Assembly: GCA_947631015.1 (NCBI GenBank)
Contig: CANRJS010000011.1
Span: forward strand, 1 to 54,390
Direction of reading: 5' to 3'
Length of the DNA stretch: 54,390 nucleotides
Origin: an uncultured Clostridia bacterium
GTDB taxonomy: Bacteria > Bacillota > Clostridia > Oscillospirales > JAAYOS01
Position numbers and translations under genes: made by a program. The notes under the pieces were generated by a model that made no database searches, was not told where the DNA came from, and saw only the letters and a list, made by a program, of their open reading frames with translations. Positions 1-54,332 of the stretch are shown here, one piece after another (within the stretch, counting starts at the first letter, position 1; each line of letters starts with the position of its first letter).

Positions 1-675
1 AAGCACACAAAGGGGAGAAAACCAAGGTTTTCTCCCCTTTGTACCCCTCTTTCCTTTGACCGGAAAGTCTCTGCGACGCGGGACATCTGCCCGTAGCTTA
101 GTACAAGCGCCCGCGCTCATACTTTCCCCTAGAACAGAAAGTTCCGTCTTCTCGGGGAAGTATCTGCATTACGCTTATAGTGTGAGCGTAGGACCGGACT
201 TTTATTTCTACTACGCAGGAACTGTTCGATGTCGTCGAATACAGTGGGAAAGTCGGATATGTACCCCAGAAACTCACCCGGTCGGATGATAGATGTGTTT
301 GATACAGAGTGTGTCCTGTTATGCGGGTTGCGGTTGTGTGTCGTATTCAGGAGAGGGATTTTTAAGGGAGAGGGCGAAGCCCTCTCCCTTAAGCGCGCTT
401 TTTGGCTACTTTTTGCGCGAGCAAAAATGTAGCGCGTGCGTGCTCGAACCTTTTCCGCATAGATACATTCTACAGCACGCACTAGCATTGTCCGCTTCGC
501 GGACAATGCCCAACACTTTCTTCACGAAACTGTGCGGGGCGGCACAGCCCCGCCGGGGGTGCGGGGGCAGCGCCCCCGCAAGGTGTCGGTAGAGCTCTGC
601 TCTACCAAGGACGCGGGGTCTCGCCCCGCAGATTCCTGCGGGGCTTCCCCGCTATACGGGTGTGGGCACAGCCTC
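1..675 (-). repeat. Family A nested palindromic repeat, copy 1 (one arm cut by window edge)
   Basis: This fills the gene-free stretch before the GH5 gene. Positions 1-432 match the core of the complete copy at 31116-31574, in reverse orientation. The core is bounded by two strong hairpins: AAAGGGGAGAAAACC with its complement (9-40), and TTAAGGGAGAGGGC with its complement (362-391). Beyond the core lies an arm of G+C-rich hairpins, including CATTGTCCGC/GCGGACAATG (485-507), GTAGAGC/GCTCTAC and GCGGGG/CCCCGC stems, ending at the GH5 stop codon. No conserved reading frame was found. The other arm lies outside the window. Confidence 0.8.
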
Positions 676-11621: not shown

Positions 11622-12153
11622 TTGCGGGAGCGAAGGCTGTGCAGCGGGGGCAAGCCCCGCACCCGTATAGCGGGGAAGCCCTGCGGGCATCCGCGGTGCG
11701 AGACCCCGCGTCCCTGAGTGAGGCAGAGCCTCACGGGCATTTTGCAGGGGTTGCGCCCCCCGTGCCTCTAGCGGGGAAGCCCCGCAGGAATCTGCGGGGC
11801 TTCCCCGCGGCCCTAGTAGAGCGGAGCTCTACCGACACCATGCGGGGATTGCATCCCCGCACCCTGCGTTACTTTTTGCTTGTGCAAAAAGTAACCAAAA
11901 AGCACACAAAGGGGAGAAAACAAAGTTTTCTCCCCTTTGTACTCCTTTTTCCTTTGACCGGAAGGTCTCTGCTACGCGGGACGTCCGTCCGTAGCTTAGT
12001 ACAAGCTCCCCGCTTATATTCTCGCCTAGAACCGAAAGCTTTGTTTTCTCGGGGACGCTCTGCATTACGCTTATAGTGTGAGCGTAGGACCGGATTTTTA
12101 TATCTACTACGCAGGAACTGTTCGATGTCGTCGAATACAGTGGGAAAGTTTGA
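11622..12153 (+). repeat. Family A nested palindromic repeat, copy 2 (truncated)
   Basis: This fills the convergent gap between two lipoprotein genes. It has one full arm of hairpin units (GCGGGGAAGC..., GTGAGGCAGAGCCTCAC, GTAGAGCGGAGCTCTAC), the TTACTTTTTGC/GCAAAAAGTAA boundary palindrome (11870-11895), the AAAGGGGAGAAAAC hairpin and the first part of the core. The core stops at about 12153, where the sequence becomes unlike the other copies. The second arm is missing. Confidence 0.8.
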
Positions 12154-19200: not shown

Positions 19201-19515
19201 GCTTGCCGATGTCTCGCAGAGTTTCGCGTCTTCGGCGCGAAATAAATTCAAATCCGTAAATTTCTGCGGCGTGTACAATGCGCCCTCAAACCTATGCCGC
19301 AACCGACTGTCTACGCCGCCAAAGGCGGCGTCCGCGCCTGTTCGCGCGGTTGAAGTTGGCGGCTTTGCCGCCAACTTCGCGGAGCCCCGATTCATTCGGG
19401 GCGAGCATTTAAATCGGAAGGGTTCCCAAGCGCTCCAAAGGAGCGTTTGGGAATTGCGAAAGGGTGCGCCGGGCAATTCATTGCCCGAGCACATTTCGCG
19501 CCGAAGCGAAGCATA
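19200..19515 (+). repeat. Family B hairpin-cassette repeat, copy 1
   Basis: This occupies the gap between the mannosidase operon and spoIIID. Fixed flanking sequences hold hairpins in order: TTTCGCG/CGCGAAA, CCGCC/GGCGG, GTTGGCGGC/GCCGCCAAC, CCCCGA/TCGGGG with loop TTCAT, CCAAGCGCTCC/GGAGCGTTTGG and CGGGCAA/TTGCCCG. The same order with different stems recurs at 45150-45470 and, shortened, at 53200-53340. No coding frame is conserved between copies. Confidence 0.8.
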
Positions 19516-30862: not shown

Positions 30863-31774
30863 GCGGGCGGAGCCTGCAACCGCTTCATGTGGCGTGCCGC
30901 CCCGCACCCCTCCAGCGGGGAAGCCCCGCGAGCAATCGCGGGGCGAGACCCCGCGTCCCTAAGTGAGGCAGAGCCTCACCGGCAGATGTGGGGCATGCCC
31001 CACTCCCATCTAGCGGGGAAGCCCCGCGAGCAATCGCGGGGCGAGACCCCGCGTCCCTAAGTGAGGCAGAGCCTCACCGACACTTCGCGGGGCTGTGCCG
31101 CCCCGCACCCCTGCGCTACTTTTTGCTCGCGCAAAAAGTAGCCAAAAAGCGCGCTTAAGGGAGAGGGCTCCGCCCTCTCCCTTAATAATCCCTCTCCTGA
31201 ATACGACACACAACCGCAACCCGCATAACAGGACACACTCAGTATCAAACAAATCTGTCATCCAGCCGGGTGAGTTTCTGGGGAATATCTAGCTTTCTAC
31301 TGTATTCGACAACATCGAACAGTTCCTGCGTAGTAGAAATAAAAGTCCGGTCCTACGCTCACACTATAAGCGTAATGCAGAAGCTTCCCCGAGGAGACGG
31401 AACTTTCAGTTCTAGGGCAAAGCATGAGCGAGGAAGCTTGTACTAAGCTACGGACGGACGTCCCGCGTCGTAGAGACTTTCCGGTCAAAGGAAAGAGGGG
31501 TACATAGGGGAGAAAACCGTGGTTTTCTCCCCTATGTGTGCTTTTTGGTTACTTTTTGCACAAGCAAAAAGTAACGCAGGGCGCGGGGATGCAATCTCCG
31601 CAAAGTGCTCGTGAGGCTCTGCCTCACTCAAGGACGCGGGGCGCGCCCCGCAGATTCCCGCGGGGCTTCCCCGCTATAACGGGTGCGGGCTCTGCCCGCT
31701 CGGTCGCAGGGGGTCTCGCCCCGCAAATGCTCGCGGGGCTTCCCCGCTAGATGGGTGTGGGCTTCGCCCGCTGA
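30863..31774. repeat. Family A nested palindromic repeat, complete copy
   Basis: This 0.9-kb gene-free element lies between recG and spoIIP. A 459-bp core (31116-31574) is bounded on both sides by the palindrome TACTTTTTGC/GCAAAAAGTA, with CCAAAAAGC(G/A)C(G/A)C just inside as an inverted repeat. Just inside each end is a strong hairpin: TTAAGGGAGAGGGC on the left, GGGGAGAAAACC on the right. Outside are arms of about 200 bp, inverted relative to each other, each made of two G+C-rich hairpin units. The left arm shows the units as a near-perfect 98-bp tandem repeat (30914 and 31012). Nothing in it looks translated. Confidence 0.85.
30914..31109. repeat. 98-bp tandem hairpin units in the left arm of family A copy 3
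   Basis: Two consecutive units start AGCGGGGAAGCCCCGC at 30914 and 31012. Their first 67 bp are identical. Each holds hairpins GCGGGG/CCCCGC, GCGGGG-CGAGA-CCCCGC and GTGAGGC-AGA-GCCTCAC, then a fourth hairpin that differs: GTGGGGCATGCCCCAC in the first unit, GCGGGGCTG...GCCCCGC in the second. Confidence 0.85.
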
Positions 31775-45149: not shown

Positions 45150-45470
45150 CGATGTTGCGGAAAAGCCTCGCAGAGTTCGCCGCAAAAGCCTCGCAGAGTT
45201 TCGCCGCTTTGCGGCGAAATAAAGCCAAATCATTTTTCCAGACGACATGTGCGTCGGGAAAAATACTTCTCGCGCAGCGTGCGTCGAACGGGCGAAGCCC
45301 GTTCCCGCGCTTGTTCGCGCGGTTAAAGTTGCTTGCCATAGGCAAGCAACTTTGCGGAGCCCCGATTCATTCGGGGCGAGCATTTTAATTGAAAAGGCTC
45401 CCAAACGGTCGATAGACCGTTTGGGAATTGCGAAAGGGTGCGCAGCGTAAGCGAGCACATTTCGCGCCGA
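45150..45470 (+). repeat. Family B hairpin-cassette repeat, copy 2
   Basis: This fills the convergent gap between spoVAE and the GerMN gene. It carries the same order of elements as copy 1: TTTCGCCGC/GCGGCGAAA, then AACGGGC/GCCCGTT, GTTGCTTGCC/GGCAAGCAAC, the identical CCCCGA...TCGGGG hairpin, and CCAAACGGTC/GACCGTTTGG. The last hairpin is replaced by a short CGTAAGCG. The phrase GCGAAAGGGTGCGC ... GAGCACATTTCGCGCCG is kept on both sides of it. Confidence 0.8.
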
Positions 45471-53111: not shown

Positions 53112-53157
53112 CACGCCTCGCCGTATGACCCCGTACCCCAATACCATCAAAACAACG

Positions 53158-53196
53158 GAAGGACGATACGGCGGAGCCGTATCGTCCTTCTCTTTT
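53158..53196 (+). terminator. Terminator after the MATE - GNAT pair
   Basis: A 15-bp perfect stem (GAAGGACGATACGGC and complement) with a 3-nt loop is followed by TCTTTT. Confidence 0.85.
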
Positions 53197-53199
53197 GGG

Positions 53200-53340
53200 T
53201 TTCGCGCCGATAGGCGGCTTCCGCGCCTGTTCGCGCGGTTAAATTCGGCGCACAGCGCCGAATTTGCGCAGGCGGAATTCATTTCCGCCGAGCATTTCAA
53301 TCGGAAGGGCTCCCAAACGGCGCTCTGCGCCGTTTGGGAT
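53200..53340 (+). repeat. Family B hairpin-cassette repeat, copy 3 (short form)
   Basis: It contains the fixed phrase CGCGCCTGTTCGCGCGGTTA, then the hairpins ATTCGGCGC/GCGCCGAAT, GGCGGAA/TTCCGCC with loop TTCAT, and CCAAACGGCGC/GCGCCGTTTGG. Stems differ from those in copies 1 and 2 while the flanking words (GAGCATTT, CGGAAGGG) are kept. It ends in the shared terminator-like hairpin at 53342. Confidence 0.78.
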
Positions 53341-53341
53341 T

Positions 53342-53453: not shown

Positions 53454-54332
53454 ATGAAAATGACAACTTTGATTCTTACAGACGAGACCATCGACGCGTT
53501 CGCTCGCGAGCTCGAGGCGAAGCACCGCAGCGTCTGCACGCGCGAAAAGTATCTGCACGACGCGCGTGAGTTCGCGCGGTTCCTCGCGGGGCGTCCCGTC
53601 TCGCCGGAGCTGACGCTTGAGTATCGGGACGCGCTCATTTCCTCCGGCTACTCGCCGTCGAGCGTGAACACGATGTTGGCGTCACTGAACGCTCTGTTCC
53701 GCTTTGTCGGGCGGGAGGACTGCCGCGCCGAGCGGACGCGCGTCCAGCGCGAGGCGTTCCGTCCCGAGGAACGCGAGCTCACCCGCGACGAATACCTCCG
53801 TCTGCTCGGCGCGGCGTCGTCCCGCGAGCGTCTCATCCTCGAGGCGATCTGCTCCACCGGCATCCGCATCTCCGAGCTCCGCTACTTCACCGTCGAGGGT
53901 GTGCAGCGCGGCGCGCTGTCCGTCACCTGCAAGGGAAAAACGCGCTCAATTCTTCTCACGCACAAGCTGAGAACTCTGTTGCTTGAGTATGCGGAGCTCA
54001 ACGGGATAACTTCCGGCGCGATCTTTCTTGACAGGAGCGGAAAGCCCGTCGGGCGCGGAACGGTCTGGGCGATGATGAAGCGCTTGGCTCGGAAAGCGGG
54101 CGTCCCGGAGGCGAAGGTGTTCCCGCACAACCTGCGGAAGCTGTTCGCGAGAATGTTCTACGAGCGGAGCCACGACATCGCGAAGCTCGCGGACGTACTC
54201 GGTCACAGCAGCGTCAACACGACGCGGATCTATATCATGACGACGGGCGCAGAACACCGTGCGATGCTGGAGGAACTCGACCTCATCCCGGACACGGAGT
54301 ACCGACCGTCGGACAGGCGGCGAACGGCATAA
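53454..54332 (+). CDS. Tyrosine recombinase/integrase
   Basis: This 292-residue protein is a complete tyrosine recombinase of XerC/XerD-like size. The N-terminal SAM-like core-binding domain spans about 8-88. The catalytic domain has Arg138 in STGIRISELR, HNLR with His225 and Arg228, His251 in VLGHSSVNTT, and nucleophile Tyr260 in TRIYIM. AAGGAAG precedes the ATG. It stands alone, between a family B repeat and a terminator. It is either a chromosomal stand-alone recombinase or the edge of a mobile element; no partner genes are in the window. Confidence 0.93.
   Translation: MKMTTLILTDETIDAFARELEAKHRSVCTREKYLHDAREFARFLAGRPVSPELTLEYRDALISSGYSPSSVNTMLASLNALFRFVGREDCRAERTRVQREAFRPEERELTRDEYLRLLGAASSRERLILEAICSTGIRISELRYFTVEGVQRGALSVTCKGKTRSILLTHKLRTLLLEYAELNGITSGAIFLDRSGKPVGRGTVWAMMKRLARKAGVPEAKVFPHNLRKLFARMFYERSHDIAKLADVLGHSSVNTTRIYIMTTGAEHRAMLEELDLIPDTEYRPSDRRRTA

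Follow-up and report, generated by a model that had tools for sequence, protein, structure and literature searches.

The window, by which we mean the whole stretch of 54,390 nucleotides that was analyzed, comes from an uncultured Clostridia bacterium and contains three plus-strand copies of a palindromic repeat unit of ~121 nt, in which near-invariant linkers hold hairpins whose stems each come from a small set. The elements of the unit run in the order Hs (CCGCGC-loop-GCGCGG), TT, H2, GCGXA, H3 with a TTCAT loop, GAGCATTTCAATCGGAAGGGC, H4, and AT. In the copy at 45305-45428, the 5' end is formed by the fixed short hairpin Hs, CCGCGC(ttgttc)GCGCGG (45305-45322), and five of the six pairs of this first helix never vary. 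It is followed by the exchangeable hairpin H2, AAAGTTGCTTGCC(ata)GGCAAGCAACTTT (45325-45353); the fixed linker GCGXA (45354-45358, ending in AG when the next base is included, with X at 45357); H3, GCCCCGA(ttcat)TCGGGGC, with an exchangeable stem around its fixed loop (45359-45377); the fixed linker GAGCATTTTAATTGAAAAGGC (45378-45398); and the exchangeable hairpin H4, TCCCAAACGGTC(gata)GACCGTTTGGGA (45399-45426). An alignment of 36 copies has five helices, nearly invariant linkers, and the conserved words CCGCGCC, GCGXAG, and GAGCATTTCAATC. The second copy in the window (19332-19454) carries GGCGGC in H2, CCCCGA in H3, and AGCGCTCC in H4, and the third (53221-53341) carries TTCGGCGC, GGCGGAA, and AAACGGCGC, respectively. 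All of the stems and fixed words quoted in the initial annotation are present in these three copies, with the minor correction that the H4 stem of the 19332 copy has one G-T mismatch. The sequence CCGCGCNTGTTCGCGCGGTT is matched four times in the window with up to three mismatches, compared with an expectation of 0.15. The third copy is followed, at a distance of 113 nt, by the start of a gene for a tyrosine recombinase (Phage_integrase, with a SAM-like N-terminal domain; 53454-54332).

The unit is embedded in a backbone of further palindromes, namely M1 (CCTCGCAGAGTT, a hairpin, and AAATAAA), M2, and 3' modules. At the 45305 copy, and again on the plus strand, M1 (45188-45222) consists of the fixed word GCCTCGCAGAGT, the hairpin TTCGCCGC(ttt)GCGGCGAA, and then ATAAA; M2 (45232-45264) is the hairpin ATTTTTCC..GGGAAAAAT around GACGACATGTGCGTC, with paired stems that vary and an apex that is fixed; and the 3' module, GCGAAAGGGTGCGCAG...GAGCACATTTCGCGCC, occupies 45430-45470. 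The M2 stems around CGGCGTGTACG occur as 24 variants among 36 copies in genome G000. Directly upstream of the unit, and abutting it, lies H1, AACGGG(cgaag)CCCGTT (45287-45303), a position that is probably often held by the target hairpin or by what is left of a preceding unit. Such an arrangement is common: 83 of 144 copies begin no more than 6 nt downstream of the foot of another hairpin, compared with background rates of 8% across the genome and 16% in the vicinity, and 55 distinct hairpins are found in this position. Some copies (8%, versus 2.7% in shuffled sequences) are flanked by direct repeats of 12 nt or more, whose length is not constant. Also present in the window (1-667, 11647-12149, and 30892-31762) is a second complex repeat family with arms of up to 250 nt that are 92% alike and occur in both orientations; the outer pairs of its hairpins, e.g., GTTACTTTTTGC/GCAAAAAGTAAC, differ in a paired manner between copies and between orthologues.

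The phenomenon is real and larger than initially noted, with about 100 copies per genome in four of the five species of one uncultured Clostridia genus. A covariance model of the unit gave 93-127 raw matches per genome in these four species, and none in the fifth (E <= 1e-4 throughout). Since some raw matches are antisense echoes of the palindromes (in the 816 kb of the genome of origin that was assessed, about 50 of 62 matches were judged real from their scores and strands), we put the copy number at roughly 100 per genome. By BLAST, ~45 places in the genome of origin (1.89 Mb, 43 contigs) match the stretch at 45180-45470. The portions sampled were ~0.87 Mb of this genome, 0.79 Mb of G001, and less of G002 and G004. 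Three of the four carrier genomes are rabbit-gut MAGs (Lapin samples). The Hs-H2-H3-H4 unit was detected in 3 of 84,980 species genomes scanned, a set that possibly does not include the genome of origin, and all three belong to this genus. With spurious ORFs through the repeats masked, units are enriched in gaps between convergent genes (24/55, versus 59/301; p = 4e-4, an approximate figure because genes were called by ORF length), and the excess resembles that of other intergenic palindromes.

Genome-wide extraction and clustering of the stems, a check that the initial annotation had proposed, revealed that stems are reused between loci. Among 145 parsed copies from the four species, with stem classes that we defined from common motifs, the counts for H2 were CTTGCC 46, GGCGGC 38, and AGCGGC 27; for H3, GGCGGAA 41, CCCCGA 39, GGGGCAA 19, GGGGCGA 17, and CCGGAA 14; and for H4, CGCGGTC 53, AACGGCG 28, AAACGGTC 18, and AACGCTCC 15. 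The main alleles of each hairpin are present in all four species, and they are reassorted: 52 distinct H2-H3-H4 combinations occur among 104 copies. There is no association between the alleles of H3 and H4, which lie 27 bp apart, or between those of H2 and H4 (mutual information z = 1.0 each), and only a weak one between H2 and H3, which are 6 bp apart (z = 2.6). The linker base X (45357) is strongly tied to the H3 allele (z = 30), compared with z = 0.4 for H2, three bases away. Pairing of X with H3 was looked for and not found, and the tie has exceptions (CCGGAA occurs with G six times and with C three times), which is why X is treated here as a linked passenger moving with H3; a structural role is the alternative. 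The loops of H2 and H4 also occur in inverted form, whereas that of H3 is inverted in 0 of 145 copies. A minority of stems differ by a single base pair or a single mismatch (GTTAACGGC; GTTGCCTGCC opposite GGCAAGCAAC), and point mutation is therefore the source of some alleles. The initial view of hairpin exchange rather than point mutation thus holds for the reused stock and its near-independent assortment, together with the whole-stem differences between orthologues described below, but not for these few alleles.

Covariation within the stems is clean, and the earlier concern that it might be a small-sample effect can be set aside. In the 36-copy alignment, pairing holds in 99.5% of 1328 pair cells (RNAalifold and a count over the named structure), and double changes are found at 18 of 37 pairs, in 190 cells as opposed to 70 +- 7 in shuffles; across the 145 copies, pairing is 99.2% Watson-Crick, with 35 of 4512 pairs deviating. 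Such a pattern could reflect a structured RNA, with selection for the fold and stems that covary by ordinary compensatory mutation. The non-Watson-Crick pairs read on the plus strand of the unit comprise 21 G-T versus 7 A-C, hinting that this is the strand that may fold, and the TTCAT loop of H3, which is never inverted, points the same way. Nevertheless, we consider a structured RNA very unlikely. G-T makes up <0.5% of pairs and intermediates are rare; species 7% apart differ by whole stems, while the same alleles recur across all of the species; loops occur in both orientations, and so do the units relative to codirectional genes (17 antisense, 11 sense). Rfam yielded no family for the unit with either gathering or E-value thresholds, and the best match was at chance level (18 bits versus 50).

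Thirty one-to-one orthologous pairs of loci, with a mean flank identity of 93%, were found by means of their flanking genes. Whole stems are replaced in 18 of the 30 pairs for H2, 15 for H3, and 17 for H4, giving 50 of 90 hairpins in total; orthologues share the stem class of H2, H3, and H4 at frequencies of 0.30, 0.43, and 0.50, compared with 0.23, 0.18, and 0.21 under random pairing. Mixed pairs, in which some hairpins are kept beside others that are swapped, account for 18 of the 30, and six pairs differ at all three hairpins. For example, G001 C2:89528 and G000 C7:55517 have H2, H3, and the rare GGTTCCCA form of the linker in common and differ in H4, while G000 C29:1292 and G002 C15:11499 share H4 and its loop and differ in H2 and H3. 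The 19332 copy differs from its G001 orthologue in H2, H3, and H4 beside an identical 5' side. The 53221 copy and its G004 orthologue have different H2 stems and an identical H3; their H4 hairpins differ at the tip (GCGC to CTCC), with the lower stem and the loop unchanged. The unit itself is present or absent at several orthologous sites, including that of the 45305 copy, where the orthologous G002 locus has kept the backbone and is without the unit. At two orthologous loci, ATA/TAT loops are flipped in place. An ordinary-looking hairpin in the window (53150-53195), GGACGATACGGC(gga)GCCGTATCGTCC, also has an inverted loop (tcc) in its G004 orthologue, implying that palindrome flipping is wider than the family.

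The kept and swapped states of H2 and H4 are uncorrelated and those of H2 and H3 are weakly linked, which implies tracts of tens of bp. Linkers are uninformative on where such tracts end, since their base identity is barely higher between orthologues (0.94) than between paralogues (0.92). In mixed pairs with testable loops (n = 6), five of the six kept H2 or H4 hairpins have the same loop, whereas this share is 23% among unrelated copies that carry an identical stem (p = 0.003), and we conclude that kept hairpins were inherited while their neighbors changed. Replacement does not seem to be a feature of hairpins in general: at hairpins that are unique within these genomes, 0 of 35 stems were replaced in a strict two-flank test, versus 50 of 90 in the family (p = 3e-10, although the two tallies rest on different matching procedures), so copies elsewhere that can act as donors seem to be needed. 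Of 86 replaced alleles, 70 have arms that recur at another place in the portion of their genome that was sampled.

An explanation that still deserves real weight, although we judge it unlikely, is repeated gain and loss of whole units: the unit would be a MITE with the feet of hairpins as its insertion sites, units carrying different hairpins would have come to occupy orthologous sites in separate events, and the mosaic would be old. It would account for the 83 of 144 units that abut a hairpin, for orthologous loci both with and without the unit, for the excess of flanking direct repeats, and for the six pairs in which all three hairpins differ. On the other hand, it is at odds with the mixed pairs and with loops that are shared far above chance in kept hairpins, and it leaves unexplained the unlinking of hairpins 6-27 bp apart within units. 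Pairs that differ at all three hairpins make up 6 of the 24 that are not identical throughout, compared with an expected share of 0.40 under pure independent re-insertion (p = 0.09). As this is only marginally below expectation, re-insertion at hairpin feet contributes and accounts for some of the pairs that differ throughout; it is the loop test, and not the all-different count alone, by which pure re-insertion is disfavored.

We also considered that repeat copies might have been mis-joined in short-read MAGs, given that the four genomes of the genus all seem to be drafts and that the unit plus its backbone exceeds the read length. This we regard as extremely improbable: H2, H3, and H4 lie within ~120 nt, and single reads of ordinary short-read length would probably span their combinations; independent assemblies hold identical orthologues; and the pattern of fixed words and swapped stems recurs in the isolate-derived Vescimonas fastidiosa MM35, a single 861-kb record, and is thus not a MAG artifact. 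On that record, M1-M2 homologues occur at 29 places, with M1 stems of TGCCGCC, TTCCGCC, or CGCGTC after CCTCGCAGAGTT, M2 stems of CACC or CTCT around GCGACATG, and a third hairpin between AGTGTGGAATTTT and AAAATTATGCGCGCAGCA with stems of GTCGC, TGCGC, GAGCC, or GGGCC; swapped-stem modules homologous to M1 are found in other genera as well. Within the order, the backbone was detected in 18 of 295 sampled genomes, belonging to this genus and to one other family, and it was not found in the remaining genera sampled from the family to which this genus belongs. It is also present in five human-faecal phage records. This distribution and the phage records suggest that the backbone may have spread horizontally.

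The explanation that we favor, with slightly better than even confidence, is that the family represents a mosaic palindromic repeat, mobile and non-coding and similar to BIMEs, whose hairpins are exchanged by very short ectopic gene conversion and are also flipped. The ~121-nt Hs-H2-H3-H4 unit would be one insertion module within a string of hairpins, and copies would swap hairpins with the fixed linkers serving as the shared sequence. A hairpin plausibly moves as a whole because pairing is impossible between two different palindromes that meet in a heteroduplex; the mismatched palindromes would be extruded as hairpins, each being fixed or lost in an all-or-none manner. The inverted loops of H2 and H4 would arise by flipping of the palindrome in place. 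Both gene conversion as the enzymology and extrusion as the cause of the unit behavior are inferred, and no transfer from a donor to a recipient was directly observed. The H4 hairpin of the 53221 copy and its G004 orthologue, where four tip pairs are replaced and the loop is kept, would fit simple conversion only with a donor that carried an identical loop.

Two further explanations invoke a dedicated activity. In the first, which we think quite unlikely, the linkers would be recognition words for a structure-guided exchange system that moves stem-loops as single-strand cassettes among the ~100 loci, while the linkers stay in place. In the second, a single-strand transposase or a recombinase would recognize the fixed words and exchange or insert hairpins by their structure, as might be surmised from the hairpins that adjoin fixed words, the TTCAT loop that is not inverted, the hairpin that abuts the 5' side, and the tyrosine recombinase gene next to the 53221 copy. 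That adjacency is a single case, however, and no enzyme gene accompanies the unit. Moreover, a RAYT/Y1 transposase (PF01797) had no match in the five genus genomes (G000-G004) in a search that recovers those of E. coli and other controls, and a reverse transcriptase was likewise absent from all five; we therefore hold such an enzyme to be highly improbable.

If hairpins are indeed exchanged by short conversion tracts, covariation in such repeats would not count as evidence of RNA function, which calls for caution in pipelines for the discovery of structured RNAs; the 36-copy alignment would satisfy standard covariation tests. An old proposal on the evolution of bacterial palindromic repeats, namely gene conversion (Higgins et al., 1988), also becomes directly testable. 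The stems serve as easily scored alleles and the bases in linkers and loops as markers, while the sister species provide replication; tract length, unit behavior, and the use of donors can thereby be counted.

The claim that no described element behaves in this manner was too strong, given REPINs (PMC3116915), the BIMEs of E. coli, which are mosaics of REP types (PMC8266576), and the 1988 proposal of gene conversion for REPs, as it is cited in PMC3733652 and PMC3116915. By the REP definition (a GTAG or CGTC tag at the foot of a 20-40 bp palindrome), the GTAG tag is absent from the feet of Hs and H2-H4 in the 36-copy alignment; by that of REPINs, the ends of the unit in the same alignment, CCGCGCC... 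and ...GGGAAT, are not inverted copies of each other. An attC-like (integron) reading, raised by GTTAGC/GCTAAC words, was dropped on inspection, as the order of the consensus does not fit. In the loose sense of BIMEs, the family does consist of mosaic palindromic units and linkers that are intergenic and found at many loci, and enterobacterial BIMEs are likewise many-copy mosaics of palindromes and linkers that also occupy gaps between convergent genes. The repeat described here differs from them in having neither the GTAG tag nor the Y1 transposase, in its more numerous and longer hairpins with exchangeable stems, and in belonging to another phylum. REPINs have a spacer hairpin between conserved ends in which compensatory changes are common (PMC3116915), and they resemble the present unit in their conserved ends, covarying hairpin arms, high copy number, and mobility; unlike REPINs, the unit has no REP doublet with inverted conserved ends and no RAYT was found, and it contains several different tandem hairpins with discrete, shared stem alleles. 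The backbone repeats of Oscillospirales (CCTCGCAGAGTT...; Vescimonas fastidiosa) have homologous M1-M2 modules, with fixed words and swapped hairpins, whereas the Hs-H2-H3-H4 unit of this genus was not found in V. fastidiosa. Yeast mitochondrial GC clusters and the hairpin elements of sponge and algal mitochondria are likewise non-autonomous, palindromic mobile DNA, and nucleotides flanking GC42 have been interpreted as likely co-conversion (PMC4478555). In GC42, the stems are conserved and the loops vary, whereas in the repeat described here the linkers are conserved and the stems are swapped.
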